A stretch of 39,785 nucleotides of DNA from the NCBI GenBank assembly GCA_003017785.1, contig PYEQ01000002.1, positions 1 through 39,785 on the forward strand. Reading direction: 5' to 3'. The position numbers were made by a program, and so were the translations under genes. The notes under the pieces are model-generated. The model was not told the DNA's origin. It made no database searches and saw only the letters and a program-made list of their open reading frames with translations. Positions within the stretch are counted from its first letter, which is position 1, and each line of letters starts with the position of its first letter. Positions 980 through 31,151 of this stretch are shown here, one piece after another. This stretch comes from a filamentous cyanobacterium CCP5. Lineage in GTDB: Bacteria > Cyanobacteriota > Cyanobacteriia > Phormidesmidales > Phormidesmidaceae.

Positions 980-1942
980 GTGAAATTTGCTTTTATTATT
1001 GACCCGATTGACCGCCTAGACCCCAGTCACGACACCAGTGTGGCCCTGATGGAGTCAGCCCAAATGCTGGGCCACGAAGTCTGGATCACTGAAATTGGCT
1101 ACCTCAGCGTGATTCAAAGCCAGGCCGTAGCTCGACTATGGCCAGTTACCTTGACTCCGGTAGAGCTGACATCGGGCCGCTGGGTGGCCCCGCCGGTCTG
1201 GTATCAGCTTGCTCAGCCTGCTGAACGCCCGCTACAGGACTTTGATGCTGTATTTATGCGCACCGATCCGCCAGTGACGGTGCCCTACCTCTATGCCACC
1301 TACGTGCTGGACTACATCGATCCGGCCAAAACCCGGGTGGTGAATTCGCCGCGGGGACTGCGGGCCGCCAATGAGAAAATGTACGCCCTGCAATTTACCG
1401 AAGCCATCCCGGAAACCATCGTCAGCCAGGACAAGCTGGTGATTCAAAAAGTCGTTGAGGCCTGGGGGGCAGCCGTACTCAAGCCCCTGGGCGGCAAAGG
1501 GGGCGAGGGGATTCTGTTTTTAGAAGCGGGCGATCGCAACTTCAATTCCATGGTTGAAATCAGCACCGGGCGGGGGCGAGAACCGGTGATGATTCAGACT
1601 TTCTTACCTGCCGCTAAGGAAGGGGATAAGCGGATTATTCTGCTAGATGGCAATCCCATCGGCGCGGTGAATCGGATCCCAACCGGCAGTGAATTTCGTG
1701 GCAATATGGCCGTGGGCGGTCGGGTAGCCGCCGCCGGGATCACCGATCGAGAGCGGGAAATCTGTAGCCAGCTTGCCCCCACCCTGAAGCGGGATGGTCT
1801 AGTGTTTGTGGGTATTGACGTGATTGGCGGCTACCTCACTGAGGTAAATGTCACCAGCCCCACCGGCATTCGGGAAATTGATCGCCTAGATGGGGCGCGC
1901 CTGGGCCATCAGGTGATTGAGTGGATAGCCAGTAATGGTTAA
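980..1942 (+). CDS. gshB: Glutathione synthetase GshB
   Basis: ATP-dependent ligase joining gamma-glutamylcysteine and glycine to give glutathione, the second step of glutathione synthesis, in the cytosol. The 320-residue protein matches the usual prokaryotic GshB length. It opens with MKFAFIIDPIDRLDPSHDTS, typical of the family, and carries the ATP-grasp lid region LKPLGGKGGEGILFLE around residues 165-180 and a C-terminal NVTSPTGIREIDR metal/substrate segment. The start is GTG at 980; no good Shine-Dalgarno sequence precedes it, but it gives the expected N-terminus. In many cyanobacteria a glutaredoxin gene lies beside gshB; none is seen here. A 24-bp palindrome lies 33 bases past the stop. 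Confidence 0.96.
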   Translation: MKFAFIIDPIDRLDPSHDTSVALMESAQMLGHEVWITEIGYLSVIQSQAVARLWPVTLTPVELTSGRWVAPPVWYQLAQPAERPLQDFDAVFMRTDPPVTVPYLYATYVLDYIDPAKTRVVNSPRGLRAANEKMYALQFTEAIPETIVSQDKLVIQKVVEAWGAAVLKPLGGKGGEGILFLEAGDRNFNSMVEISTGRGREPVMIQTFLPAAKEGDKRIILLDGNPIGAVNRIPTGSEFRGNMAVGGRVAAAGITDREREICSQLAPTLKRDGLVFVGIDVIGGYLTEVNVTSPTGIREIDRLDGARLGHQVIEWIASNG

Positions 1943-2144: not shown

Positions 2145-3251
2145 ATGGAATCAAACGAATTAAAAACCCTGCACGCCTATCTATCTAGGCTGGGGCGACG
2201 GCAGTTTATTCGCTATGGTTCTTTAGCGTTGGGGGCCGGTGCGATCGCTGCCTGTGCCGGAGGCCAAAATCCCTCTGAACCGGCCGATTCTACCGATGCC
2301 CCTGACACGTCGGCAGCCGATCCGGGCGACCTCACCCCGATTACCTTTGGTACCAACTGGTACGCCCAGGCCGAGCATGGCGGCTTCTACCAGGCCGTTG
2401 CCGCCGGTATCTATGAAGAATACGGCCTCGATGTCACCATCAAAATGGGCGGCCCCCAGGTAAACGGTACCCAGCTGCTGATGGGGGGCGCGGTGGACTT
2501 TTTCATGGGCTATACCGCCGACGCCATCAAGGCCGTGGTTGAGGGCATTCCCAAGGTCACCGTAGCCGCCATCTTCCAGAAAGATCCCCAGGTGCTGATC
2601 GCTCACCCGGACACCGGCGTCAAAGAACTAGCCGATCTGAAGGGGCGTCCGGTGTATATTTCCTCGGCCGCCAACGTCACTTACTGGCCCTTTTTGGAGG
2701 CCCAATACGACTTCACTGAAGACATGAAGCGGCCCTATAACTTCAACCCGGGGCCGTTTTTGAATGATTCCCAGGCGGCTCAACAGGGCTACCTCAGCTC
2801 TGAGCCCCTGGCCATCCGCAAAGAGGGGGGATTTGATCCGGTGGTGCTGCTGTTAGCCAACTTCGGCTATGACCCCTATGCCTGCACCATTGAAACCCGC
2901 CAAGATGTCATCGACGGCGATCCCGACCTGGTGCAGCGATTTGTCGATGCCTCGATCAAGGGCTGGTACAGCTACTTTCAGAACCCGGAACCGGCAAACG
3001 AGTTAATCAAGCAAGATAATCCAGAGATGACCGACGAGCAAATCGCCTACGGCATCGAAAAAATGCAGGAATACGGCATCGTTGACTCCGGCGACACCAC
3101 AGAGTTGGGCATCGGCGCCATGACCGATGACCGCTGGAAATCCTTCTTCGAGACCATGAGCGAGGCCGGTATCTTTCCGGTCGATACCGACTATACCCAG
3201 GCCTATACCCTGGAGTTTGTCAACAAAGGGCGTGAATACTACCAGGGATGA
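2145..3251 (+). CDS. ABC transporter substrate-binding lipoprotein, NMT1/THI5-like
   Basis: Extracytoplasmic binding protein of an importer. From the ATG at 2145 (AAAGGA upstream) it has 368 residues; the frame stays open to a GTG at 2061, which would add 28 poorly plausible residues. The N-terminus shows a twin-arginine motif (GRRQFIRYG, R18-R19), a hydrophobic segment, then a lipobox ending at Cys37 (AIAAC), so it is probably a Tat-exported lipoprotein. After an acidic, Pro/Ser-rich linker comes the NMT1/THI5-like fold with TNWYAQAEHGGFYQA, a hallmark of binding proteins for pyrimidine-like or thiamin-precursor compounds, and GGAVDFFMGYTADA. The ATPase, permease and amidohydrolase genes follow on the same strand, suggesting uptake of a cyclic N-heterocycle or amide. 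The substrate is inferred, not shown. Confidence 0.9.
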   Translation: MESNELKTLHAYLSRLGRRQFIRYGSLALGAGAIAACAGGQNPSEPADSTDAPDTSAADPGDLTPITFGTNWYAQAEHGGFYQAVAAGIYEEYGLDVTIKMGGPQVNGTQLLMGGAVDFFMGYTADAIKAVVEGIPKVTVAAIFQKDPQVLIAHPDTGVKELADLKGRPVYISSAANVTYWPFLEAQYDFTEDMKRPYNFNPGPFLNDSQAAQQGYLSSEPLAIRKEGGFDPVVLLLANFGYDPYACTIETRQDVIDGDPDLVQRFVDASIKGWYSYFQNPEPANELIKQDNPEMTDEQIAYGIEKMQEYGIVDSGDTTELGIGAMTDDRWKSFFETMSEAGIFPVDTDYTQAYTLEFVNKGREYYQG

Positions 3252-3252
3252 G

Positions 3253-3287
3253 GAGTCAGGAGCCCGGAGTCAAGAGTTAGGAGTCAG
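3253..3287. repeat. Degenerate heptamer tandem repeat (GAGTCAG)n
   Basis: Five consecutive 7-base units (gagtcag, gagcccg, gagtcaa, gagttag, gagtcag) begin directly at the stop codon of the binding-protein gene. They resemble the short tandemly repeated heptamers (STRR type) described in cyanobacterial intergenic DNA. Confidence 0.75.
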
Positions 3288-3588
3288 GTTGAATAAGAGA
3301 TGGTGAAGTGACAAGTTTTGAATGGTGAATGATCGTCAGAGTCAGCCCAACTCAAGCTTAAGACTAATAACTCTAAACCTCCCTACCTCCCAGCCTTCGG
3401 GCAGACGCTACCAATGCCGCCTCACCGCCAATCCCTGGGGGCAGGCTGCGCCAACCTCCCACCCTACTCTTCGCGGAGGGCTCTGCCGATCGCGGAGGGC
3501 TGCCGAACGGGAAGCTGCTTCGCGTCTACGCTCCTCACTCCGCTCATTGCACTCCGCTCACCCGCTCTACTCATCTCCCCCTCTCCCA
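3288..3588. repeat. Repeat-rich spacer between binding protein and ATPase genes
   Basis: Together with the heptamers this makes a 337-base gap inside an otherwise tight gene set. From about 3400 it is packed with short partial palindromes and direct repeats: the unit GCGGAGGGCT occurs twice near 3475-3500, CACTCCGCTCA twice near 3537-3560, and GAAGCTGCTTC is a self-complementary element near 3511. This looks like the small dispersed palindromic repeats found between cyanobacterial genes. The reading frame of the ATPase stays open upstream to about 3322, but that sequence is repeat-derived and unlike any ABC protein, so I treat it as non-coding. Confidence 0.6.
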
Positions 3589-4350
3589 ATGGCCCCCATC
3601 TTCACCCTTAACCAGGTCAGCAAGGTCTTTGCCAACGGCACTGAGGCCCTGCGCAGTATTGATCTGAGCGTACATTCGAGAGAATTTATTAGCCTGGTGG
3701 GGCCCTCGGGCTGTGGCAAGAGCACGATCTTGCGGCTGATTGCCGGACTGGGGCGGCCGTCTGGGGGGAATATCTTTTGGGGCCCTGCACCGGAGCAGCG
3801 AAATCTGGCGTTTGTCTTTCAAGATGCGGCCCTGATGCCCTGGGCGTCGGTGCTAGATAATGTGCACCTGCCGCTGAAGTTAAAGGGAAAGTCTTTGCGG
3901 GCTGCTCGGGCTGCGATCGCCCAATCCCTTCAGATGGTGGGCCTGCAGGGTCTCGAGGATCGCTATCCCCGGCAGCTATCGGGGGGGATGAAAATGCGGG
4001 TATCGATCGCCCGGGCCCTGATCACCCAGCCCAACATCTTGCTGATGGACGAACCGTTTGGGGCCCTAGACGAGATGACCCGCAGCAAGCTCAACAGCGA
4101 TTTGCTAGATCTTTGGGCGCAGCAGCAGTGGACGGTGGTGTTCGTGACGCACAATATCTACGAGGCCGTATACCTATCCAGCCGAGTTGTGGTGCTGGGG
4201 GCCCATCCGGGGCAAGTGGTGGCGGATATTCCCATCGAGGCTCCCTATCCCCGACGGGATCACTATCGCACCTCGCCTCTGTTTAATCGCTACTGCCGAG
4301 AAATTCTGGACTGTCTGTCCGGGACTGGAATGTCCTCTGCCAATCCCTAG
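3589..4350 (+). CDS. ABC transporter ATP-binding protein, nitrate/sulfonate/taurine family
   Basis: Cytoplasmic ATPase that powers the importer encoded by the flanking genes. From the ATG at 3589 it has 253 residues, the normal size for the SsuB/TauB/ThiZ-type family. Visible motifs: Walker A GPSGCGKS (38-45), Q-loop FVFQDAALMPW (Q78), signature LSGGM (130-134), Walker B LLMDEP (151-156) with D-loop GALDE, and the H-loop VTHN. The start is chosen because homology to ABC proteins begins at MAPIFTLNQVSKVF; the longer open frame upstream is repeat sequence. The permease follows after 11 bases, so the two are surely co-transcribed. Confidence 0.93.
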   Translation: MAPIFTLNQVSKVFANGTEALRSIDLSVHSREFISLVGPSGCGKSTILRLIAGLGRPSGGNIFWGPAPEQRNLAFVFQDAALMPWASVLDNVHLPLKLKGKSLRAARAAIAQSLQMVGLQGLEDRYPRQLSGGMKMRVSIARALITQPNILLMDEPFGALDEMTRSKLNSDLLDLWAQQQWTVVFVTHNIYEAVYLSSRVVVLGAHPGQVVADIPIEAPYPRRDHYRTSPLFNRYCREILDCLSGTGMSSANP

Positions 4351-4361
4351 ATTCTGAACCT

Positions 4362-5234
4362 ATGGTTCTCCACGATTCAGCTTCCCCGTCTAATTCTGGC
4401 TATCCGCCTCGCCATCGAGACCGGCTATCTTCTCCGGCTGGCTGGCATCGGCTGGTGTCAGGGGAGGTGCTGGCCCCAGTGCTGGTGGGGGTCGCCATGC
4501 TGGTGCTGTGGCAGCTGGGGGTCTGGATTTTTCAAGTGCCCGAATATCTGCTGCCGGGCCCTATCCGGGTGGCACAGGCCCTGGGTCAGGAATGGTCCGA
4601 GCTGTTTCCGGCGTTGCTGATCACCCTGGAAATTACGGTGGCTGCCTTTGGGGCTGCCACGGTGTCAGGACTGCTGATCGCCGTGCTATTTACCCAGAGC
4701 AAGTGGATTGAGCGCAGCTTTTTTCCCTATGCGGTGATTTTGCAGACGACGCCGATTGTGGCGATCGCCCCTCTGATTATTGTCTGGTTTCAAAACAGCA
4801 CCTTTGCCGCCCTGGTGGTCTGTGCCTGGATTGTGGCTCTATTCCCGATTATTTCTAACACCACCCTGGGCCTCAATAGCGCCGATCACGGCCTGCAAAA
4901 CCTGTTTCAGCTTTACGGGGCCAGCCGCTGGCAAACCCTGCGCTATCTACGGCTGCCCAGCGCCATGCCCTATTTCCTGGGGGGATTGCGGATCAGCGGC
5001 GGACTGGCTCTGATCGGGGCGGTGGTCGCCGAATTTGTCGCCGGTACCGGCGGGGCGCGATCGGGGATTGCCTATCAGATTTTGATGTCCAGCTACAACC
5101 TGCAGATTCCCCGCATGTTTGCGGCCCTGATCATGACCACCGGTCTGGGGGTGCTGATTTTTGTGGCCCTGACCTGGCTCTCCGGTCGGCTGCTGAGCCA
5201 TTGGCATGAAAGCGCCATCCATCGAGAGAATTAG
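4362..5234 (+). CDS. ABC transporter permease, SsuC/ThiX-like
   Basis: Integral membrane subunit of the importer, 290 residues. After about 35 polar residues there are some six hydrophobic segments (starting near LAPVLVGVAMLVLWQLGVWI). The cytoplasmic EAA-type coupling loop is seen as LQNLFQLYGASRWQTLRYLRLPSAMPYFLGG. The sequence PEYLLPGP early in the protein and VVAEFVAGTGGARSGI after the EAA loop are typical of the nitrate/sulfonate/pyrimidine-precursor permease group. It sits between the ATPase gene (11 bases) and the amidohydrolase gene (23 bases), so transport and hydrolysis of the imported compound are probably coupled by one transcript. Confidence 0.92.
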   Translation: MVLHDSASPSNSGYPPRHRDRLSSPAGWHRLVSGEVLAPVLVGVAMLVLWQLGVWIFQVPEYLLPGPIRVAQALGQEWSELFPALLITLEITVAAFGAATVSGLLIAVLFTQSKWIERSFFPYAVILQTTPIVAIAPLIIVWFQNSTFAALVVCAWIVALFPIISNTTLGLNSADHGLQNLFQLYGASRWQTLRYLRLPSAMPYFLGGLRISGGLALIGAVVAEFVAGTGGARSGIAYQILMSSYNLQIPRMFAALIMTTGLGVLIFVALTWLSGRLLSHWHESAIHREN

Positions 5235-5257
5235 GTGATAACTGACGGTATTAACCC

Positions 5258-6601
5258 ATGAGCTGCGTTCCTTTCGTTCACGTTCCCGATAGCCCTCACT
5301 ACTGGCTAACCAATGGTCGGATTCCCAAGGCGCTGCTTGCCTCCACCGATCAACTCACAGCCTTGCCGCAGTTTCTAGACGACCAGCAGGAGGAGCTAGT
5401 CGCCGCTGACATCGAAATCCGTGATGGCCGCATCAGCGCCATTGTGACAGCGGGTGAGGCCCCTGACTCCGGTCTCCGCTGTGACCTGGGCCAGGGCTTA
5501 GTGTGGCCCTGTTTCGTCGACATGCATACCCATCTGGACAAAGCTCACGCCTGGCCCCGCACCCCCAATCCCTTAGGCACTTTTGCCGAGGCGCTAAAGC
5601 AAGCCAATCGCGATCGCCAAGCCTACTGGCGACCAGCCGATCTCAAACGCCGCATGGACTTTGCTCTGGGCTGTAGCTATGCCCACGGCACCCGTGCGGT
5701 TCGCACCCACTTAGACTGCCTCGAAGACCAGGCAGAAACCAGCTTTGCAGTCATCGACGAGCTGCGATCGCAGTGGGCTGGCAAAATCGACATTCAGTTC
5801 GTCAGTTTGGTGCCCATTGAATTTTTCCTGGAAGACAGAGCCCCTGCCCTCGCCCAGTTGCTGGCTAAGTATGGCGGCATTTTAGGGGCCGTCACCTATG
5901 CCCATCCTCAGCTGGAGGCCCAGGTGGAGCGGCTGTTTCAGCTAGCCTCTGACTATGACCTGGCGGTTGATCTCCATGTGGATGAAAGCCTCGACCCCGA
6001 GGATCAGGCCCTAGGGGCGATCGCCCAGATCAAGCTGCGGCAGGGCTTCGAGAACTCCGTCGTGTGCGGCCATGTCTGCAGTCTCTCGGTGCAGTCCGAA
6101 TCAATTGTCAAAACGACCCTGGAACAGATCAAAGCCGCCGATATCAGTATCGTCAGCCTGCCCATGTGCAATCTCTATTTGCAGGATCGCCATCCGGGCC
6201 GGATGCCTCGCTACCGGGGCGTCACCCTCCTCCATGAACTCCAGCATCAGGGGATTCCGGTAGCCCTAGCCAGCGACAATTGCCGGGATGCCTTCTACGC
6301 TTACGGGGATCATGATGGGCTAGAGGTGTTTACCCAGTCGGTGCGGATTGGCCATCTGGATCGGCCCTATGGCTCCTGGCCCCAAGCGGTCACCGTCACT
6401 CCGGCGCAAATCATGGGCCTGGCAGAATCGGGGCGGCTAGGGGTGGGAGCATCGGCAGATTTGGTGCTGTTTAAGGCCCGCAGCCTGAACGAGCTGATTT
6501 CCAGAACCCAGGGCGATCGCGCCGTCCTGCGTCAGGGGCAAGGAATCAATACCACCCCCCCTGACTACGCCGAGCTAGACGATTTGATGGGCTGGGCTTA
6601 G
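5258..6601 (+). CDS. Cytosine-deaminase-like metal-dependent amidohydrolase
   Basis: Predicted cytosolic amidohydrolase of the cytosine deaminase/AtzC-like branch, 447 residues. Metal-binding and catalytic positions are all present: HTH (H90, H92) in FVDMHTHLDKAH, H240 and E243 in DLHVDES, H272 in CGHVC, and D340 in ASDNCRDAF. The order and spacing match cytosine deaminase, where these bind one divalent metal and activate water. Family members deaminate or hydrolyse cytosine, creatinine-like rings, isopropylammelide or hydroxypyrimidines; the sequence alone does not fix the substrate. Its position directly after an ABC importer suggests it acts on the imported compound and releases ammonia or a usable base. 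No frameshift or missing residue is seen. Confidence 0.88.
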   Translation: MSCVPFVHVPDSPHYWLTNGRIPKALLASTDQLTALPQFLDDQQEELVAADIEIRDGRISAIVTAGEAPDSGLRCDLGQGLVWPCFVDMHTHLDKAHAWPRTPNPLGTFAEALKQANRDRQAYWRPADLKRRMDFALGCSYAHGTRAVRTHLDCLEDQAETSFAVIDELRSQWAGKIDIQFVSLVPIEFFLEDRAPALAQLLAKYGGILGAVTYAHPQLEAQVERLFQLASDYDLAVDLHVDESLDPEDQALGAIAQIKLRQGFENSVVCGHVCSLSVQSESIVKTTLEQIKAADISIVSLPMCNLYLQDRHPGRMPRYRGVTLLHELQHQGIPVALASDNCRDAFYAYGDHDGLEVFTQSVRIGHLDRPYGSWPQAVTVTPAQIMGLAESGRLGVGASADLVLFKARSLNELISRTQGDRAVLRQGQGINTTPPDYAELDDLMGWA

Positions 6602-6616
6602 GGTTCTACCGGCCGG

Positions 6617-8380
6617 TCATTCTACCCAGGGCAGAATCACCGTAATACAGGTGCCCTTAGCGCTACTCTCCACCTTCAATAGCCCCCCGTGGAGCTCAAC
6701 GCAGGTTTTAACTACGGCCAGCCCCAGCCCTGTTCCAGGCACTGACCCGACATTTTCACCCCGATAGAACGCCTCAAAGATTTGATTTTGGGCCTCGGCC
6801 GGAATCCCAATGCCCTGATCGATGACCCGAAATCGCAGAGACTGATCGTCCCCGGCCACGACTAGCTGTACGGGTGCGTCCTCAGGGGAGTACTTCACGG
6901 CATTGGAGAGCAGATTCACCAAAATCGAGTGGAGCAGGTTTTTATCGAGGTAGGCTTTGGTCAAGGCGGGTTCTAGGTGCAGATCCAGGGTCTGATTTGG
7001 CTGACGATCTACCTGGTCGAAAATTTGCCGGCAAAATCCCTCTAGCTCAACGATTTCCGGGGCAAACTCCAGCTTCCCCGCCTCCGCTCGACTCAGGGTA
7101 AGCATGTCGTTGACCAGCTGCCCCATCCGCTTTGCGGCCAGCTGAATTCGTTCAATGGTGCTGTACTGCTGGGCGGGAGTGAGCTGGGTCTGATTGGCCG
7201 CCCAGGACTGGGCTGATACCCAAATCACGCTCAGGGGAGTACGGAGCTCGTGGGAGGCCATGGAAAATAGCCGCAGTTTTAGGTTGCTGAGTTCTCGGGT
7301 GCGTCTGATCTCAGACTGCCAGCGGGAGAGATAAATCAATAGGCTAATGGTCACTAGCAGCCCGATTAGCAGAGTCGCCAGGGTGCCCCACAGGGGCGTC
7401 TGGGTGGTGGGGGTAAACACCAGTCGCCACTCCCGCTGGCCCAGACTAATGCGGCGATCGCACTCTTGTTCCCGTTGACACAGAGGATTAGGATGACTTG
7501 GGGCAATGGGCTCAGTCTCCGTCGTTACCCGCTGGGTTTGGGCGTCATAGAAGCCTAAAAACTGCTCGGAGGTAGGGGCCGTTTGGTCGTAGATATAAAA
7601 GTCTACGTCGTAGATTAGGTCTTGCAGGGACTCTTCAACCACGTCTGCGACTCGAAAGACTCCCAATACGTAGCCCTCTAGCTGCTGACGACGGCCTACC
7701 AGGGTGGTGGCTGGGCGATTATAAACCGGAGCAAACACCAAGAAGCTGTACTGGTCTTCTGTCGTCTCCTGAACCAGCTTGATCCGACCGGTCGCGGCGA
7801 TCGCCCCCGTATCCCGGGCCCGCTCCAGAGCAATCCGCCGGGTCAGGTCGGAGGCCAGATCGTAGCCCAGGGCCAGCTCATTGTCCTGCCAGGGTTCTAA
7901 AAACGTCACCGGCACGTAGCTAGGTCGCACTCCAGCGGGAATCAGAGTCCCTGCCGAAGTCCGCTCGGTAATCGTATCCCGGCCCCCCCGGGTGGTGCTG
8001 CGCAGCCAGCGCTCATAGTCAGAGCGGGCGATCGCCGACACCTGCGGAGCCCACTCCAAGGCCTGGATTCCCGGATAGGAGCCCAGTGCCCGCCGCACGA
8101 ACTGACTGAAAGCTACCCCATCCACCTGATTATCCGTTGCCCGGTAAAAGTCACTCAGGGACAAAATCAGGTCGTTATATCGATTGATGGTGCGCTGCAG
8201 GGAGGTAGTGAGGTTGTCAGTTTGGGTTTGAAATTCGCTCTGCCGGGTCAGGCGTTCCCAGCGGCCCACCCAAACAGTCGCCGCGAAGGTCAGCCCCAGG
8301 CCCAGCCCCAGGACCAGGCCCGCAGGCAGATAGCGATACACCTTTAGCGGCAATTTTACCGGCATAGTCCCTGGGGCCAT
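6617..8380 (-). CDS. CHASE-domain sensor histidine kinase
   Basis: Membrane sensor kinase of 587 residues. Order: membrane segment at about 17-37, an extracytoplasmic CHASE domain at about 60-260 (including the SYPGIQALEWAPQV region), a second membrane segment at about 330-351, HisKA with phospho-acceptor H377 in SMASHELRTP, and a HATPase domain with NLLSNAVKYSP, DQGIGIP and GTGLGLAV boxes. CHASE domains sense small extracellular ligands; the ligand here is unknown. An alternative start at MPVKL (8365) is about as likely as ATG 8380. It lies 45 bases after the aminotransferase gene on the same strand. No response regulator is next to it. Confidence 0.92.
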   Translation of the reverse strand: MAPGTMPVKLPLKVYRYLPAGLVLGLGLGLTFAATVWVGRWERLTRQSEFQTQTDNLTTSLQRTINRYNDLILSLSDFYRATDNQVDGVAFSQFVRRALGSYPGIQALEWAPQVSAIARSDYERWLRSTTRGGRDTITERTSAGTLIPAGVRPSYVPVTFLEPWQDNELALGYDLASDLTRRIALERARDTGAIAATGRIKLVQETTEDQYSFLVFAPVYNRPATTLVGRRQQLEGYVLGVFRVADVVEESLQDLIYDVDFYIYDQTAPTSEQFLGFYDAQTQRVTTETEPIAPSHPNPLCQREQECDRRISLGQREWRLVFTPTTQTPLWGTLATLLIGLLVTISLLIYLSRWQSEIRRTRELSNLKLRLFSMASHELRTPLSVIWVSAQSWAANQTQLTPAQQYSTIERIQLAAKRMGQLVNDMLTLSRAEAGKLEFAPEIVELEGFCRQIFDQVDRQPNQTLDLHLEPALTKAYLDKNLLHSILVNLLSNAVKYSPEDAPVQLVVAGDDQSLRFRVIDQGIGIPAEAQNQIFEAFYRGENVGSVPGTGLGLAVVKTCVELHGGLLKVESSAKGTCITVILPWVE

Positions 8381-8425: not shown

Positions 8426-9592
8426 CTATTTCTGGGCTAGCACCTGGGCCAGGGTTTCCAGCAGCCGGTCTACGTTTTCTGGGTGGCTGTTGGCCCCCAT
8501 CAGACCGATGCGCCACACCTGACCCGCCAGTTCCCCCAGGCCGCCGCCAATCTCGATGTCGTACTCGTTCAGCAGGGTGCGGCTCACCGCCTTAGGGTCT
8601 ACCCCTGCCGGCACCCGCACTGTGGTCAGGGTCGGCAGCCGAAACTCTCGATCCACGTGGCAGTTGAGACCCAGAGCCTCTAGTCCATCCCACAGCCGCT
8701 CGGCATTTTGCTGGTGACGCTGCCAGCGGGCCTCTAGCCCTTCTTCTGCGAGCAGTCGCAGGGCTTCTCGCAAGGCATAGGTCATGTTCACCGGAGCGGT
8801 GTGGTGATAGGTGCGATCGCTGCCCCAGTACTTCTGCAGCAGGCTGGCATCGAGATACCAGTTGGCCACCGGGGTGCGGCGATTCTGAAGTTTGGCGATC
8901 GCCCGCTCCCCCAGGGTAAAGGGGGAAATTCCCGGCGGGCAGCTGAGTCCTTTCTGGCTGCAGCTATAGGCCAAATCCACCTGCCAATCATCTAGAAAAA
9001 TGGGCACCCCACCCAGGCTGGTAACCGTATCGACGATCAGCAGGCAGTCGAATTCGCGGCACAGGGCCCCGAGGCCCTCTAGGGGCTGACGCACCCCCGT
9101 AGAGGTCTCGGCATGGACAATCGCCAGCACCTGAGGGCGGTGGGTTTCTAAGGCAGCGCGCAGCTCCGCCAGATCAAAGGCCTGGCCCCAGGCCTTGTGA
9201 ATCGTGCGCACATCCCCGCCATAGCGACCCGCCATGTCCACCAGACGATGGCCAAAGTAGCCTTTGACCGCGACCAGCACCACGTCCCCTGGTTCCACCA
9301 TGTTGGCCAAGGTAGCTTCCATCGCCGCTGAACCCGTGCCTGGCACCGGATAGGTGAGCGGGTTCTGGGTTTGCCAGGCATAGCGAAGCAGATCTTGCAC
9401 CTCGTTCATCAACCCCAGATAGGCCGGGTCTAAATGGCCGATGGGCTGCTGATTCATGGCTGCCACCACCGTGGGGTCTGCGTTCGAGGGACCTGGGCCA
9501 AGTAGCAGTCGCTGGGGCACCTGCAGGGGTGTCAGCGAACGACGACTCGCCTGATTAACAGTGGGTGTAGAAACAGACAGAGTGGATGCCAT
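8426..9592 (-). CDS. Alanine-glyoxylate/serine-glyoxylate aminotransferase family protein
   Basis: PLP-dependent class V aminotransferase of 388 residues. The PLP lysine is K214 in YSCSQKGLSCPPG, preceded by the cofactor aspartate in LLIVDTVTSLGG. The N-terminal LLLGPGPSNADPTVVAAM and the HAETSTGVRQP segment are typical of AGT/SGT enzymes, which convert glyoxylate to glycine in photorespiration; related cyanobacterial proteins were historically annotated as the soluble hydrogenase small subunit. A role in photorespiratory glyoxylate removal is the likely one. It lies between two histidine kinase genes on the same strand (63 bases after one, 45 before the next), so co-transcription is possible though no functional link is known. 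Confidence 0.93.
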   Translation of the reverse strand: MASTLSVSTPTVNQASRRSLTPLQVPQRLLLGPGPSNADPTVVAAMNQQPIGHLDPAYLGLMNEVQDLLRYAWQTQNPLTYPVPGTGSAAMEATLANMVEPGDVVLVAVKGYFGHRLVDMAGRYGGDVRTIHKAWGQAFDLAELRAALETHRPQVLAIVHAETSTGVRQPLEGLGALCREFDCLLIVDTVTSLGGVPIFLDDWQVDLAYSCSQKGLSCPPGISPFTLGERAIAKLQNRRTPVANWYLDASLLQKYWGSDRTYHHTAPVNMTYALREALRLLAEEGLEARWQRHQQNAERLWDGLEALGLNCHVDREFRLPTLTTVRVPAGVDPKAVSRTLLNEYDIEIGGGLGELAGQVWRIGLMGANSHPENVDRLLETLAQVLAQK

Positions 9593-9655
9593 GACAAAAC
9601 TTCTCCAGTTGGGCCTCCCTATTCTCTAACGGAATGGGCTGATCGCTAAGGGGGC

Positions 9656-11053
9656 TTAGGCGGATTCCTGGGCCTCGGCCTGGCGCAGCCACAGGATGAA
9701 AACGCTTCCAGGGCCCGTGGTTTCAGTGGCGGCAGGCACTAGACCGCTGAGGGCGGCGGGACTGTAAAGTTCAATGGAGCCCCCCATGGCCGCTATCAGA
9801 TCCTGGGCGATCGCCAGTCCTAGACCAGTACCGGCAATGGTGCCCTCGGCCTGCACCCCCCGATAGCTGCGCTCAAATACCCGGCCCTGATCGGCTGCTG
9901 GGATTCCCGGCCCGGTATCCCCCACGGCAATCCCCTGGTACTCCTGATTCTCAACCTGTTTCAACAGCCCCGTTGCTACCCAGACCCAGGCACCCGCCGG
10001 AGAATACTTCAAAGCATTGTCAAGCAGGTTACTCAGCACCTCCCGGAGGGCTCCAGAGTCCATCCAGACTGGGGGCAAATGTTCGACTAGCCCCTGCCCC
10101 ATTAGAATCTGTCGCTCCTGGGCCACGGCTCCAGCCGACGCCAGCAGCGGCTTGAGGATGTCATCCACGGGCAGGGCCTCCAGGGAAAGCTGCCCCATCA
10201 GCCCCTCCCCAGACCTGCCCGGCCTAGTGGATTCCTGGCTGTTATCAGCCGATGGCAGGGCTAGAGCGGCTGTAGACGGCTGGGTCGGCGATCGCTCCAA
10301 CCGTAAATCCCCATCGGCCACCGCCGCATCAAACTGCCTGGTGAGATCCTGCAGGCGATCGCTTTCCCGGACGATGCCCTCTGCAGCCGAATAGTTCTTA
10401 TCCTCAGGCTCTAGCCGTCGCAGCATTAAGCGACCGAAGGTCCCCATCGCCGTCAGGGGATTGCGAAACTGGTGCAGTAAATCATGGAAATGCTCTGACT
10501 GATGCTGCTGGTCCAGGTAGGTTTGCTGCAGCTGCCGCTGCATCCACTGGCCCCGCTGATCGAGGACGCAGGCGATCGCCAAACTACTGGCTACTTGTTC
10601 CGCCTGTCGCTGGTCGTTTTCAGCCCAAGGCCTTGGCCGCGAACAGACCAGCACCCCCAGCAGTACTTCGTCATAGGCCATCGGCAATACTAGTCGCTGC
10701 CCTGATGGCTCCCCATCCAGGCCAAGAGAGTGATTTGGCCCGCTTTTCCCTTCAAAGGGCGAGGTTATGACCGCCCCATCGGCCCCAGGGGTAATCGCAG
10801 CCGGACCAATTTGAGCCGAATCCGGGGGGGCATCTTCAGGCAGATATCGCTGGTCGGCCTCTGATCGAAGGTTAGAGCGTTCTGGATAGGCATACACCGG
10901 AATCAGAGCCGGACTGCTTTGCCCGGTTTCATCAGGCTCTACCCGGTGATCGGCCAGATAGACTGCCGTCGAGGTTACCCCCAAAGCCTGACTCAAGACC
11001 AACATCTGGGACTGGCACAGGGCAAGGAATTCAGGGCTTGTGGGGACGATCAT
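9656..11053 (-). CDS. GAF-domain histidine kinase resembling Hik2 / chloroplast sensor kinase
   Basis: Predicted soluble sensor kinase, 465 residues, with no membrane segment. A GAF-like domain fills about residues 1-165, a HisKA region follows with H194 in LLHQFRNPLTAMGTFGRL, and a HATPase domain ends the protein (LSNLLDNALKYSPAG, GDTGPGIP, GTGLGLAI). The H-box HQ-x-RNPLTA followed by a TFG motif and the N-terminal FLALCQSQ with Cys13 are, from memory, features of the Hik2/CSK family, in which a conserved GAF cysteine helps hold a redox-sensing iron-sulfur cluster. That assignment is moderate. An acidic insertion at about 240-290 is low-complexity. The aminotransferase gene follows after 63 bases. 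A possible NtcA site lies upstream (11244-11257). Confidence 0.85.
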   Translation of the reverse strand: MIVPTSPEFLALCQSQMLVLSQALGVTSTAVYLADHRVEPDETGQSSPALIPVYAYPERSNLRSEADQRYLPEDAPPDSAQIGPAAITPGADGAVITSPFEGKSGPNHSLGLDGEPSGQRLVLPMAYDEVLLGVLVCSRPRPWAENDQRQAEQVASSLAIACVLDQRGQWMQRQLQQTYLDQQHQSEHFHDLLHQFRNPLTAMGTFGRLMLRRLEPEDKNYSAAEGIVRESDRLQDLTRQFDAAVADGDLRLERSPTQPSTAALALPSADNSQESTRPGRSGEGLMGQLSLEALPVDDILKPLLASAGAVAQERQILMGQGLVEHLPPVWMDSGALREVLSNLLDNALKYSPAGAWVWVATGLLKQVENQEYQGIAVGDTGPGIPAADQGRVFERSYRGVQAEGTIAGTGLGLAIAQDLIAAMGGSIELYSPAALSGLVPAATETTGPGSVFILWLRQAEAQESA

Positions 11054-11243
11054 TAACCAGGATGCTTAGATTATGAGCATCATAAACTTTTGTTAAAGTC
11101 TTGGGGGTTTTGTTCACTGATAACTTAATCAGAACCCACTGAAAGGCTTCTAGAACAGCGATCTAACGCACCTCATCAGCAATTTTAAGAGAAGTTGAAA
11201 TTCTCATATTGAACCGATATACTTTGCAAGGTCTGAGGATTTT

Positions 11244-11257
11244 GTAACTACCACTAC
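11244..11257 (-). promoter_or_regulatory. Candidate NtcA site between Hik2-like kinase and DUF3155
   Basis: GTAACTACCACTAC fits the NtcA consensus GTAN8TAC, and the flanks extend it to TGTAN8TACA. Read on the minus strand toward the kinase, 22 bases separate the site from TATATC, close to the usual spacing to a -10 box in NtcA-activated promoters. Toward DUF3155 the site is too close to the start (35 bases) for class II activation but could repress. Confidence 0.45.
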
Positions 11258-11292
11258 ACCTATAGACGCTGATATGAGAGGAGGTAGGCGGT

Positions 11293-11616
11293 TTGGCTAG
11301 AAGACGGAAGCGCAAGAGTCGTCGTCGTTTGGAAGGTCGTCGAATACTGGAAGCTGTTCCCCAGTATAGTATTGAGAGCGGTGCTGAAAAACCAGTGACT
11401 GCTGCTCGCAACTTTATTCACTCTGAAGGCATTGCTCCCCCGGCATTGCTCTTAGTGAAGCGTAACGAGCATACAACGGATCGATACTTTTGGGCAGAGA
11501 AGGGCCTGTTTGGGGCCCAGTACGTTGAGGAAAATCATTTCCTTTTCCCCAGTTTACGGGTTCTAATCGGTGAGGATGAAGAATCACCCGCGCTGAATGC
11601 AGCCGGGGTTCGTTAA
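11293..11616 (+). CDS. DUF3155 family protein
   Basis: Small basic protein of 107 residues that matches the cyanobacterial DUF3155 family, whose function I do not know. The N-terminus is strongly basic (MARRRKRKSRRR), suggesting nucleic-acid or acidic-surface binding; the rest is a conserved domain with EGIAPPALLLVKRNEHTTDRYFWAEK and GLFGAQYVEENHFLFPSLR. Translation starts at an unusual TTG at 11293, supported by an excellent Shine-Dalgarno AGGAGGT 7-13 bases upstream. The gene is monocistronic: a strong intrinsic terminator follows. It is divergent from the Hik2-like kinase. Confidence 0.9.
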   Translation: MARRRKRKSRRRLEGRRILEAVPQYSIESGAEKPVTAARNFIHSEGIAPPALLLVKRNEHTTDRYFWAEKGLFGAQYVEENHFLFPSLRVLIGEDEESPALNAAGVR

Positions 11617-11674
11617 TCCCAGTTGGGCCAGCGGAATTATCTAGCTAGCTTGAGTTCCTAACTGATTAAGCCAT

Positions 11675-11709
11675 AAAAGGGCGATAGATTTAGCATCTAT
11701 CGCCCTTTT
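11675..11709 (+). terminator. Intrinsic terminator of the DUF3155 gene
   Basis: AAAAGGGCGATAGA at 11675-11688 pairs with TCTATCGCCCTTTT at 11696-11709, a perfect 14-bp stem with a 7-base loop ending in a T-tract. Because the left arm begins with As, it can work on both strands. The remaining sequence up to 11892 holds nothing I can assign. Confidence 0.9.
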
Positions 11710-11892
11710 GCACGATTGCGTTGGCCGAGCGGGTGAGGCCATAGATATTGTCCAAAAGCTGATGACTGAGGCACAGCCCGGCGCGCTATTGTCTAAATTA
11801 GTTGTTCACTTGCTATGGCTTCTAGCCTCAGCCGTTTGCCGTCATAGCTCAACAACAGCCGCCTAAGCTTGATTGGGCCTACAGCCTATCGA

Positions 11893-12405
11893 TCATTGCA
11901 GCCGGTTTTGCTGTAGCGCAATCAGTTCATCTCGATGGGCGATCACCGTTACTTGACTTCCCGCATCGGTTTCTGGCGTCCCCTCCACCGTGAAAGTCAC
12001 GGTTTCTTCGCGCCTCGCCCTGCGCCAGTAAAACCAGCCGGCAGCCGGGGATAGCAGCAGCAGCAGTGAGAATCCGGAGCTATAGTCAGGAAACAGAGTA
12101 GCCAGGACTAGGGCGAAACAAACGCTTCCGATACCGGCTAAGCCGGTGAGGAACACCGCCAGAAACCGGCTAGGTCTGACCAGGCCAGCCAGGATAACCG
12201 GCTGGTCTGGACCAGGATTAAGGCGATGATAGGCGCGATCGCAAAAGTAAGCCTCTAGATCAGTTCGTATCTGTTCGGGGGCTTGGTCTACGGTGAACTG
12301 GAGGGTTTCGATGCGATCTTTAGTGGAAGCCCGAATAAAAAAGAACAGGCCCACCATCAGCAATAGCGTGAGGAAAAAGGTAGAAGATAAAACCGCGTTC
12401 GTCAT
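11893..12405 (-). CDS. Cofactor assembly of complex C subunit B (CCB/DUF3529-type)
   Basis: Membrane protein of 170 residues from the ATG at 12405 (MTNAVLSSTFFLTLLLM); an upstream in-frame ATG at 12441 would add 12 residues. It has a hydrophobic N-terminal segment ending in LFFFIRASTKDR, a cytoplasmic-looking region, then two membrane segments around residues 82-130 (SRFLAVFLTGLAGIG and LLLLLSPAAGWFYWRR) and a soluble tail. This layout matches the cyanobacterial family named after the plastid CCB2/CCB4 factors, which help attach heme ci covalently to cytochrome b6. Photosynthetic electron transport is thus its likely field; petM, another b6f gene, lies about 7 kb away. Confidence 0.8.
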   Translation of the reverse strand: MTNAVLSSTFFLTLLLMVGLFFFIRASTKDRIETLQFTVDQAPEQIRTDLEAYFCDRAYHRLNPGPDQPVILAGLVRPSRFLAVFLTGLAGIGSVCFALVLATLFPDYSSGFSLLLLLSPAAGWFYWRRARREETVTFTVEGTPETDAGSQVTVIAHRDELIALQQNRLQ

Positions 12406-12539
12406 TGCGCCCAGAAAAAAACACCCTTCTAGGGTACGCAAGAACGGGGAATCCTAGCTTCCTTAGCCTTCATAAATCCGCTAAGTCCGGGCCTGTTGCT
12501 CGGTGGAATATTCTTCGCAGCCAGGCTAAACGCCAAAAA

Positions 12540-12584
12540 CCTAGCCAACATTCTGCCACCGAAGCGGGCAGAATGTTGGCTAGG
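12540..12584 (-). terminator. Intrinsic terminator of the PadR-type gene
   Basis: Two perfect 18-base arms (12540-12557 and 12567-12584, CCTAGCCAACATTCTGCC and its complement) enclose a 9-base loop. On the minus strand the hairpin is followed at once by TTTTTGG, which makes it a strong intrinsic terminator about 78 bases after the stop of the PadR-type gene. It also separates that gene from the CCB gene downstream. Confidence 0.88.
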
Positions 12585-12661
12585 CACAATGGTTCGCCAT
12601 CAAAATGAAAGAGTTAAACTCCTTCCGAGTCCAGATTCAAATCCAGAGAGTGACCCAGCAA

Positions 12662-13048
12662 TTATGGGGAGGCTAATACCTGCCCTTCCTGGCAAGCCGG
12701 ATCCCGGCTTTGAGTCTGCATATATTGATACCAGAGCTCAGCCAGTTCTTCAGCATGCATGCGCCAGTCTGGGTTGAGCCGGTACATGCGACGGGGTCTA
12801 CCGCGGCCTTCTACCTTTTTCCAGTAGCCATCGATCGCAGACTCATCTTCTAAAAACTTGAGCGCACCATAGAGCACCGTGTCGGATAGCCGATAGTCGG
12901 GATGACGATGGCTGAGCAGCTGAATCAACTCCGTACCATAGGAGTCTCGCTGTAGCAAAACTGCCAGGACATAGCAAACAGCCAATTCTTTGTTCAGATA
13001 AACCGGGGGTGGATCCTCAAAGAACTGATAGATATCCTCGAATTTCAT
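12662..13048 (-). CDS. PadR-family transcriptional regulator
   Basis: DNA-binding regulator of 128 residues from the ATG at 13048 (MKFEDIYQFFEDPPPVYL). The frame extends 46 residues upstream, but that part is unlike the family. The winged helix-turn-helix covers about residues 20-95: YVLAVLLQRDSYGTELIQLL, then DTVLYGALKFLEDE and the wing region YWKKVEGRGRPRRMYRL, which is the typical PadR sequence. The C-terminal dimerisation helix is short. Cyanobacterial orthologs are well conserved, but I do not know the ligand or target. It has its own terminator (12540-12584). Confidence 0.9.
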   Translation of the reverse strand: MKFEDIYQFFEDPPPVYLNKELAVCYVLAVLLQRDSYGTELIQLLSHRHPDYRLSDTVLYGALKFLEDESAIDGYWKKVEGRGRPRRMYRLNPDWRMHAEELAELWYQYMQTQSRDPACQEGQVLASP

Positions 13049-13379
13049 AGGACGACTCCATTGTTTATCCCAATGCCTTGAATCAGGCAGCTTAGGAAAT
13101 TGACCGTTGCCACTGCCAGCAAATCCTGCACAGTAAAGCAATATCACCGGATTCCGATGGTTATGGGCATGATCGGCCAAAGGCAAGATTCCCTAGGACC
13201 GCAAAGTTGCTTCAGCCAACTTTGGCCAAAATCCATTCACACCGAAGACTCGGAATTTTTCGGTAGGTTAATTCTAAACACTGTTTATCCCTGAAATGAA
13301 TAAATCGGGATAGACGGTAACTATCTGCAAATATTTTTAGAGATTATTAAATTTCTTTTTTCAAAAATAATTTAGCGCC
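13049..13379. other. Spacer upstream of the PadR-type gene, with an AT-rich end
   Basis: These 331 bases lie between two minus-strand genes. The part next to the regulator should hold its promoter, but I see no convincing operator. The 13320-13375 end is AT-rich with an imperfect inverted repeat (AAATTTC / GAAAAAA-rich) just past the stop of the DUF3084 gene, possibly its weak terminator. No coding potential or tRNA was seen. Confidence 0.4.
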
Positions 13380-14774
13380 CTAATTCGGCCAGGGAGAAGG
13401 CAGCTCTAAGTCGGTGTTGGGGGGCTGATTGGGGGAGCTGGTCGTGAATACTACCCGTTCTCCCCGTTGGGCGATCAGCTCAGTTCTCACCGGTCCTACG
13501 GTGTAGATCGGCGCAACGGTCACAGCTCGAATGGTCAATGGCCGACCGTAGGCTTTAATCGCTTCTAGGAATCTCAACAGAGTCTCGGTGCGATTGTCCG
13601 CCACCTGCAGGGCATCTCCAATCACCCCGTCCTGACGGGCTCGAAACTGGGCTGCTGCAATCAGAAAGTTGATCCGCTCAACCAGCTCTTGATCGCTGAG
13701 TTCCTCGGCTGTTAGGGTTGCTGTCGATAGCACCGTCCCAGCCGGATAGATTAGCTCATTCTCAACGGCATAGGTGATGACTTGGATGCAGGGTTGACTC
13801 TGGTTTTCCAGCACACAGGGCTCTCCCACTACGTAGTTGGCGGCTGAAAGGACCCTGACCAGATATTCTTTGCCGTCACTAATCTGGTTGACTAGCTGAT
13901 TCAGCTCCCTCGACTCGGTTTCAATGATGAATTGACCGACAGGGGTACCGGGGGTAATCTGCCTGAGGGCAATGCGGTTGGCCTCTAGCAGCAGCTGCTC
14001 AACAAATTGATTGGCCTGTTCGGGATTGCCGACCCTCACCAGCCCTGACACCAGTTCTTGATTACGCCTGAGGGCAATGTTGCCGCGGAATAGGTCGTCA
14101 TACTGCTCTTGGAGGGCCGCGACCTCAGCTTCCAAAAATTGCTGTTGGGATTCTAGCCCGGCTAGCTGTTGCTCTTTGAGGGCAATCTGCTGGTCCCGTT
14201 CGGCAATGTCTTGATCCCGACGTCTGATCTGTTCATCAATCGTAGCCTGCTGCCGGAGTAGCTCCTGACGCTCACTCTGGAGCTGTTGAATCTCTTGGTT
14301 AAGATTGCTCGCCTGCTGGGAAACGGTCACGAGCTGTTGACGGGTACTTTGGAGCTGCGATCGCGTTTGCTGCTGCTGCTCGTAGGCGCTCTGGAGGGAT
14401 TGGTTAATCTCTTCTAGCTGGGCCTGGGCCTGCTGCTGCTGAGACCGCGACGCTTCCAGCTGAGATTCCACCTCGGTTTGGGCCGATTCAGCCTTAATTA
14501 GTTCTTCCCGGGCTGATTCTAGATCTCCCTGAATTTCGCTCAGCTCAAACACTCCAGTCCTGAGCTGACTGCTAATGCCAAACAGCAGAGCCAGGGTCGA
14601 AGCCGAAATCACGCTGCCGGTGGCGATGCTGACGACAGTCGCGGTTTGCTTGGGGCGTAGGTTAAATAAGCTGAGCCTGGCTTTGCCAACTCGCATGCCG
14701 ATGCGATCGCCCAGTGTCGCAATCACCCCTCCCAGCAGCAAAACAGCCAGTATTAAGACATATCCAGAAACCAT
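13380..14774 (-). CDS. DUF3084 coiled-coil membrane protein
   Basis: Protein of 464 residues matching the cyanobacterial DUF3084 family. It begins with two membrane segments (about 1-20, GYVLILAVLLLGGVIATLGD, and 45-68) separated by the conserved DRIGMRVGKARLSLFNLRP. A long Gln/Glu-rich coiled coil follows (about 78-235), then a soluble C-terminal domain with GTPVGQFIIETESRELNQL and a Pro-rich end. It probably forms membrane-anchored oligomers; its role is unknown. The gene lies 48 bases downstream of ntcA on the same strand, so it may be read from the ntcA promoter and thus respond to nitrogen status; this is inference. Confidence 0.88.
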   Translation of the reverse strand: MVSGYVLILAVLLLGGVIATLGDRIGMRVGKARLSLFNLRPKQTATVVSIATGSVISASTLALLFGISSQLRTGVFELSEIQGDLESAREELIKAESAQTEVESQLEASRSQQQQAQAQLEEINQSLQSAYEQQQQTRSQLQSTRQQLVTVSQQASNLNQEIQQLQSERQELLRQQATIDEQIRRRDQDIAERDQQIALKEQQLAGLESQQQFLEAEVAALQEQYDDLFRGNIALRRNQELVSGLVRVGNPEQANQFVEQLLLEANRIALRQITPGTPVGQFIIETESRELNQLVNQISDGKEYLVRVLSAANYVVGEPCVLENQSQPCIQVITYAVENELIYPAGTVLSTATLTAEELSDQELVERINFLIAAAQFRARQDGVIGDALQVADNRTETLLRFLEAIKAYGRPLTIRAVTVAPIYTVGPVRTELIAQRGERVVFTTSSPNQPPNTDLELPSPWPN

Positions 14775-31064: not shown

Positions 31065-31151
31065 GGAGAGATGGCCGAGTGGTTGAAGGCGCAGCACTGG
31101 AAATGCTGTTTAGGGGCAACTCTAACGAGGGTTCGAATCCCTCTCTCTCCG
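31065..31151 (+). tRNA. trnS-GGA: tRNA-Ser (anticodon GGA)
   Basis: The 87-nt sequence folds as a class II tRNA. Acceptor GGAGAGA (31065-31071) pairs with TCTCTCC (31144-31150), discriminator G31151. The D-arm is GCCGAGTGGTTGAAGGC, the anticodon stem CAGCA/TGCTG holds loop CTGGAAA with anticodon GGA at 31099-31101, a long variable arm follows, and the T-arm is GAGGG-TTCGAAT-CCCTC. CCA is not encoded. Confidence 0.96.

Follow-up and report, generated by a model that had tools for sequence, protein, structure and literature searches.

On balance, our results favor a model whereby a four-gene locus of the filamentous cyanobacterium CCP5 carries out uptake and deamination in a pathway for the breakdown of folate-derived pterins, the other genes of which are scattered in the genome. 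The locus lies at positions 2145-6601 of contig PYEQ01000002.1, within the window, by which we mean the whole 39,785-nt stretch of DNA that was analyzed, and it combines an ATP-binding cassette (ABC) importer having an NMT1/THI5-type substrate-binding protein with an amidohydrolase. We propose pterin or folate catabolism because two partners encoded on other contigs of the same genome, a flavoenzyme and a creatininase-family hydrolase, point there; the class of substrate would follow from the resemblance of the flavoenzyme to the structure 6v42 in the PDB.

A conserved importer–amidohydrolase locus

The four genes, all of them real genes, follow one another on the plus strand:

2145..3251, plus strand, NMT1/THI5-type substrate-binding lipoprotein (Pfam PF09084 NMT1, 91.6 bits)
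3589..4350, plus strand, ABC transporter ATPase (Pfam PF00005, 104.4 bits)
4362..5234, plus strand, ABC transporter permease (Pfam PF00528, 93.6 bits)
5258..6601, plus strand, amidohydrolase of the PRK07583/NF005759 family, labelled cytosine deaminase and proposed here to be a pterin-type deaminase (Pfam Amidohydro_3, 112.8 bits)

Gene calls and Pfam thus bear out the initial annotation of the sequence, which had described a lipoprotein of the twin-arginine (Tat) and NMT1/THI5 type, an ATPase, a permease, and an amidohydrolase on one strand. Binding protein, ATPase, and permease of the importer are all present in one operon. The gaps between successive genes are 337, 11, and 23 bases, and comparison with relatives indicates that the ATPase most likely starts at the ATG at 3589, the longer open reading frame from 3322 being an unsupported extension. 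Judged by eye and without a predictor, the binding protein carries the twin-arginine motif GRRQFIRYG and the lipobox IAAC; its solved relatives are 4nmy and the thiamin-pyrimidine binder 3ix1 (53 and 38 bits, respectively). The amidohydrolase reaches 629.4 bits against NCBIfam NF005759/PRK07583 ('cytosine deaminase'), well above the curated cut-off of 403, and is referred to below as the deaminase.

For the comparison of gene neighborhoods we used the best 80 of 277 relatives' loci, 47 of them cyanobacterial-like (including one metagenome-assembled genome labelled Herbaspirillum) and 33 proteobacterial. Copies of the binding protein at related loci show 46-74% identity, and permease copies adjoining the deaminase 47-79%. 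The coupling of importer and amidohydrolase that the initial annotation had pointed out recurs in other genomes with the same gene order, and because the identical order is found in another phylum, the arrangement is more than chance. Among proteobacterial loci with enough sequence, 26 of 29 carry all three ABC genes in the 3.5 kb preceding the deaminase, and a creatininase-family gene is present in 19 of 29. Of 31 proteobacterial loci, 20 encode a flavoenzyme of ~468 residues immediately after the deaminase, one has it further off, and two (near-identical Xenophilus records) have it upstream, behind the binding protein; it also directly follows the deaminase in L027, a locus too short to enter these counts. 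All three annotated rhizobial plasmid regions read creatininase, LysR, binding protein, ATPase, permease, 'cytosine deaminase', flavin adenine dinucleotide oxidoreductase, NAD(P)H oxidoreductase, and RidA, with variable strands for LysR and RidA. Urea carboxylase and allophanate hydrolase genes stand directly before one rhizobial cluster (L114, 1-5952), and tandem copies of the flavoenzyme occur behind the deaminase in L060 (three copies, 9350-13418) and in L047 (two copies).

Proposed partner genes on other contigs and their co-occurrence

In the genome of CCP5 (G000), the binding protein, ATPase, permease, and deaminase form the run in the window and the flavoenzyme lies on another contig, as does the creatininase-family gene:

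G000:C419:7593-8900, minus strand, flavin oxygenase, proposed partner outside the window, ortholog of the rhizobial flavoenzyme
G000:C121:1654-2445, plus strand, creatininase-family hydrolase, proposed partner outside the window, 67% identical to the gene at L099

A flavoenzyme model built from 25 aligned sequences (pLDDT 82; a single-sequence model with pLDDT 35 was not used) matches 6v42 with a Z score of 46.5 and 62% identity, the next matches being D-lactate dehydrogenases at Z 28.4. The title of 6v42 reads 'Crystal structure of the flavin oxygenase with cofactor bound involved in folate catabolism'. The C419 flavoenzyme itself scores 451.6 bits against 6v42, compared with 51 for the next PDB match. 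The product of the C121 creatininase-family gene shares ~35% identity with the rhizobial protein of this family at L050, and in the cyanobacterium at L099 the creatininase-family gene, the deaminase, and the flavoenzyme lie inside one stretch of 19 kb. Importer, deaminase, and flavoenzyme stand all together at L092 and L097. At L093 the deaminase adjoins the flavoenzyme and at L098 and L106 about 1 kb separates them, with no importer genes beside them, while at L090, L091, and L100 the importer adjoins the flavoenzyme in genomes without a deaminase above the cut-off. By eye, a small gene that looks conserved (94-160 residues, with a start like MDSLLINSLLEDLKNP) is found close to the binding protein or the flavoenzyme at L090, L091, L101, L102, L103, and L108.

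In a sample of 292 genomes of the phylum, the deaminase (at the NF005759 cut-off) is carried by 44, the flavoenzyme (E 1e-60) by 87, the binding protein (1e-40) by 21, and the creatininase-family gene (1e-60) by 63. Setting aside 35 picocyanobacterial carriers of a divergent deaminase leaves 257 genomes, of which 52 have both flavoenzyme and creatininase-family gene, 1 the flavoenzyme alone, 6 the creatininase-family gene alone, and 198 neither. The flavoenzyme is found in 39 of the 44 deaminase carriers versus 14 of the 213 genomes without a deaminase; deaminase, flavoenzyme, and creatininase-family gene occur together in 39 genomes, and the deaminase without the flavoenzyme in 5. The pairing extends to the class of the L083 genome, where 14 of 289 genomes have the flavoenzyme (E 1e-80), 15 the deaminase (E 1e-100), and 13 both, the two genes being adjacent in 9 of these, 3.5-16 kb apart on the same contig in 3, and on two contigs in 1. 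Of 14 control genomes, Synechococcus elongatus alone exceeds the deaminase cut-off.

In the model that we favor, the binding protein and the ABC importer would take up a pterin-like compound arising from the breakdown of folate or of cyanobacterial pteridines, and the PRK07583 amidohydrolase would hydrolyze this compound, most likely releasing ammonia from its 2-amino-4-oxo-pyrimidine ring. The flavin oxygenase encoded on contig C419 would then attack the ring with oxygen, after which the creatininase-family hydrolase encoded on contig C121 would open the resulting cyclic amide or amidine, a creatinine-like ring. Later release of an imine and of urea would fit the presence of RidA in the three rhizobial regions and of urea-degrading genes beside one of them. 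The outline suggested in the initial annotation, that an N-heterocycle is imported and deaminated, is most likely right, whereas none of the substrates that it named is the best fit.

Several observations weigh against this model. The link to folate comes from a single PDB title, and the C419 flavoenzyme is about 49% identical to 6v42; therefore, its substrate may differ. We found no reported pterin activity of a PRK07583 enzyme. The flavoenzyme is absent from 8 of the 31 proteobacterial loci, and in the set of 80 loci the deaminase has no adjacent flavoenzyme at any of 38 evaluable cyanobacterial loci, of which 34 lack the flavoenzyme and 4 have it further off. Of 35 cyanobacterial loci with enough sequence, 4 carry the complete set of ABC genes in the 3.5 kb before the deaminase, 11 an incomplete set, and 20 no ABC gene, and among the 21 genomes bearing the binding protein the deaminase is present in 10 (absent in 11) and the flavoenzyme in 15 (absent in 6). 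The Fisher values for the association of flavoenzyme with creatininase-family gene (2e-46) and of deaminase with flavoenzyme (8e-29) ignore shared ancestry. Moreover, in family f7, 11 genomes have the flavoenzyme and the creatininase-family gene, some also with the importer, and no deaminase above the cut-off; one further pattern in this family is the flavoenzyme only (1 genome), and at least 12 of its genomes have neither gene. As for published work, we recognized no paper on the 6v42 enzyme or the gene set in the open-licence literature, although one may exist elsewhere, and term searches of PMC12746152, PMC12752717, PMC8772269, and PMC9045290 yielded no mention of either.

The divergent deaminase of picocyanobacteria scores 220-276 bits, below the NF005759 cut-off, and the flavoenzyme is present in 34 of the 35 genomes, with 61-587 bases separating its matched stretch from that of the deaminase; the creatininase threshold is reached in 5 of the 35. 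Divergent deaminase and flavoenzyme adjoin each other at L094, L095, and L096, and at L094 and L096 they lie, by eye, between folC-like and miaB-like genes. A search at 1e-40 gave no binding-protein ortholog in picocyanobacterial genomes, so that the pair would there act on endogenous pterins. We speculate, and rather tentatively, that the PRK07583 family is a widespread pterin-type deaminase that works with the flavin oxygenase and the creatininase-family hydrolase in the pterin turnover of many cyanobacteria, and that the deaminase–flavoenzyme pair in the conserved picocyanobacterial genome recycles endogenous products of folate or pteridine damage without an importer.

Among the alternatives, the one that survives best is that a different N-heterocycle is broken down, for example a ring of the hydantoin, creatinine, or purine type, and that the flavoenzyme has a substrate other than a folate pterin. 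It would account for the creatininase-family partner, for RidA in the three rhizobial regions together with the urea-degrading genes beside one, and for the identity of just ~42-51% between cyanobacterial flavoenzymes and 6v42. We nevertheless regard it as unlikely, given that, among solved flavoenzymes, 6v42 is by far the nearest to the enzyme and that a much-alike gene set occurs in both phyla.

Directly before the binding protein lies a glutathione synthase gene, both in the window (980-1942) and at L007, L011, and L049 in related cyanobacteria; at L018-L020 and L023 such a gene precedes the deaminase, the importer being absent there. Directly after the amidohydrolase, on the opposite strand, the window has a gene for a CHASE-domain sensor histidine kinase (6617-8380, minus strand), for which the 80 related loci, some of which end soon after the deaminase, gave one weak match that is not adjacent (L066). 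Cytokinin breakdown was considered on account of this kinase and of the resemblance of the flavoenzyme fold to cytokinin dehydrogenases (Z ~23), and was dropped in view of the Z score of 46.5 for 6v42.

Separation of the amidohydrolase from CodA-type enzymes

The metal ligands H90, H92, H240, H272, and D340, all of which had been read correctly in the initial annotation, do not vary among the 87 family rows in our alignment (gaps excluded) and align with H61, H63, H214, H246, and D313 of CodA; the catalytic Glu of the CodA type is likewise retained (E243). The picture is different for Gln156, Asp314, and Trp319 of CodA, which we take to be cytosine-site residues, Gln156 presumably contacting cytosine. 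Gln156 has no Gln counterpart, its place being taken by P186 in one alignment and by I187 in another, and both positions are variable in the family, while Asp314 and Trp319 are replaced by N341 and F346, both invariant across the 87 PRK07583-type rows. The same genome encodes a CodA-type paralog on contig C441 (L088; 577.1 bits to PRK09230, cut-off 483), which keeps the Gln and the Trp and has Cys at position 314. In a 51-row tree, for which CodA-type rows were picked by similarity to this paralog and in which E. coli CodA is not a row, PRK07583 and picocyanobacterial enzymes split from the CodA-type enzymes at 100/99 support. One sequence, L138, has a PRK07583 label from a tied blast score, yet is placed on the CodA side. 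From its residues, its clade, and the separate paralog, the window amidohydrolase is probably not the cytosine deaminase of the cell.

Two further loci concern related enzymes. The same genome holds a second importer–amidohydrolase pair (L089, G000:C683, 1063-5645) with a PRK05985 amidohydrolase (523.6 bits), whose neighbors, by eye, are nucleoside-type ABC permease-like genes and a lipoprotein in one run. At G170:C11:96028-98277, a creatininase-family gene adjoins a CodA-type amidohydrolase and not a PRK07583 one.

These findings bear on the substrates for which the initial annotation had suggested tests. A true deaminase of cytosine (or 5-methylcytosine) served by a dedicated pyrimidine importer, salvaging cytosine to uracil and ammonia, would explain the NCBIfam equivalog label, the fact that the closest solved enzymes are CodA and its relatives, and the retention of metal ligands and catalytic Glu. 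The loss of the contact glutamine and the two further replacements, the separate clade, and the CodA-type paralog argue against cytosine as the best substrate and make this salvage route quite improbable; nor do we know of any role for the flavoenzyme and creatininase partners in it. Phylogeny, which had been proposed as a check, speaks against grouping the enzyme with the CodA type. Still less credible is the salvage of hydroxymethylpyrimidine or another thiamin pyrimidine by a ThiXYZ-like importer and a deformylase- or deaminase-like enzyme, which we consider very improbable. It would suit an NMT1/THI5 binding protein distantly similar to the formylaminopyrimidine binder 3ix1, whereas no thiamin pyrophosphate (TPP) riboswitch was found at the Rfam gathering score in the window, where the sole match is a tRNA (31065-31151), or in 8 proteobacterial loci, and no thi genes occur in the three annotated rhizobial regions. 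Hydrolysis of s-triazines likewise ranks below the pterin model, AtzC being a more distant match than CodA.

The absence of a TPP riboswitch had already been noted in the initial annotation, as had that of an NtcA box upstream, and our Rfam and GTA-N8-TAC scans of the window agree. The latter motif occurs 6 times in the window versus a shuffle mean of 2.47, and the one copy near the locus (2350-2363) is inside the binding-protein gene. Promoter and terminator scans gave scores not above those of shuffles, and no repeats of at least 14 bases were found in 3240-3600.

Proposed pterin breakdown and known systems

Light and oxygen damage folate and related pterins, and to our knowledge the disposal or reuse of pterin fragments by bacteria is poorly described. 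If correct, our model would provide candidate genes through which cyanobacteria, streamlined picocyanobacteria among them, could break down pterins, would correct the 'cytosine deaminase' label on a family found above the cut-off in 44 of the 292 sampled genomes of the phylum, and would turn an open list of substrates into a short, testable one.

The window enzyme shares with E. coli CodA (PDB 1k6w, 3o7u) the amidohydrolase superfamily, the metal ligands, and the catalytic Glu, but has lost the equivalents of Gln156, Asp314, and Trp319 and is separate from the CodA-type clade. AtzC, the N-isopropylammelide amidohydrolase (PDB 4cqb, 2qt3), belongs to the same amidohydrolase group and matches at ~70 bits versus 119 for CodA. 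Similarly, the window binding protein is of the NMT1/THI5 family like 3ix1 and 4nmy, yet matches these at 38 and 53 bits, and of the features expected in a ThiXYZ importer operon, the TPP riboswitch was not found in the window and thi genes do not occur in the three annotated regions. The closest parallel is provided by the 6v42/6v43 flavin oxygenase together with the rhizobial operon encoding its orthologs, a comparison of gene neighborhoods made through these orthologs. LysR, NAD(P)H oxidoreductase, and RidA of that operon were not seen beside the window locus, and the operon is compact, whereas the genome of CCP5 has the flavoenzyme and the creatininase-family gene on other contigs. Nevertheless, importer, PRK07583 amidohydrolase, flavoenzyme, and creatininase-family relatives are common to both, and the order binding protein, ATPase, permease, and deaminase is the same in the rhizobial operon as in the window.

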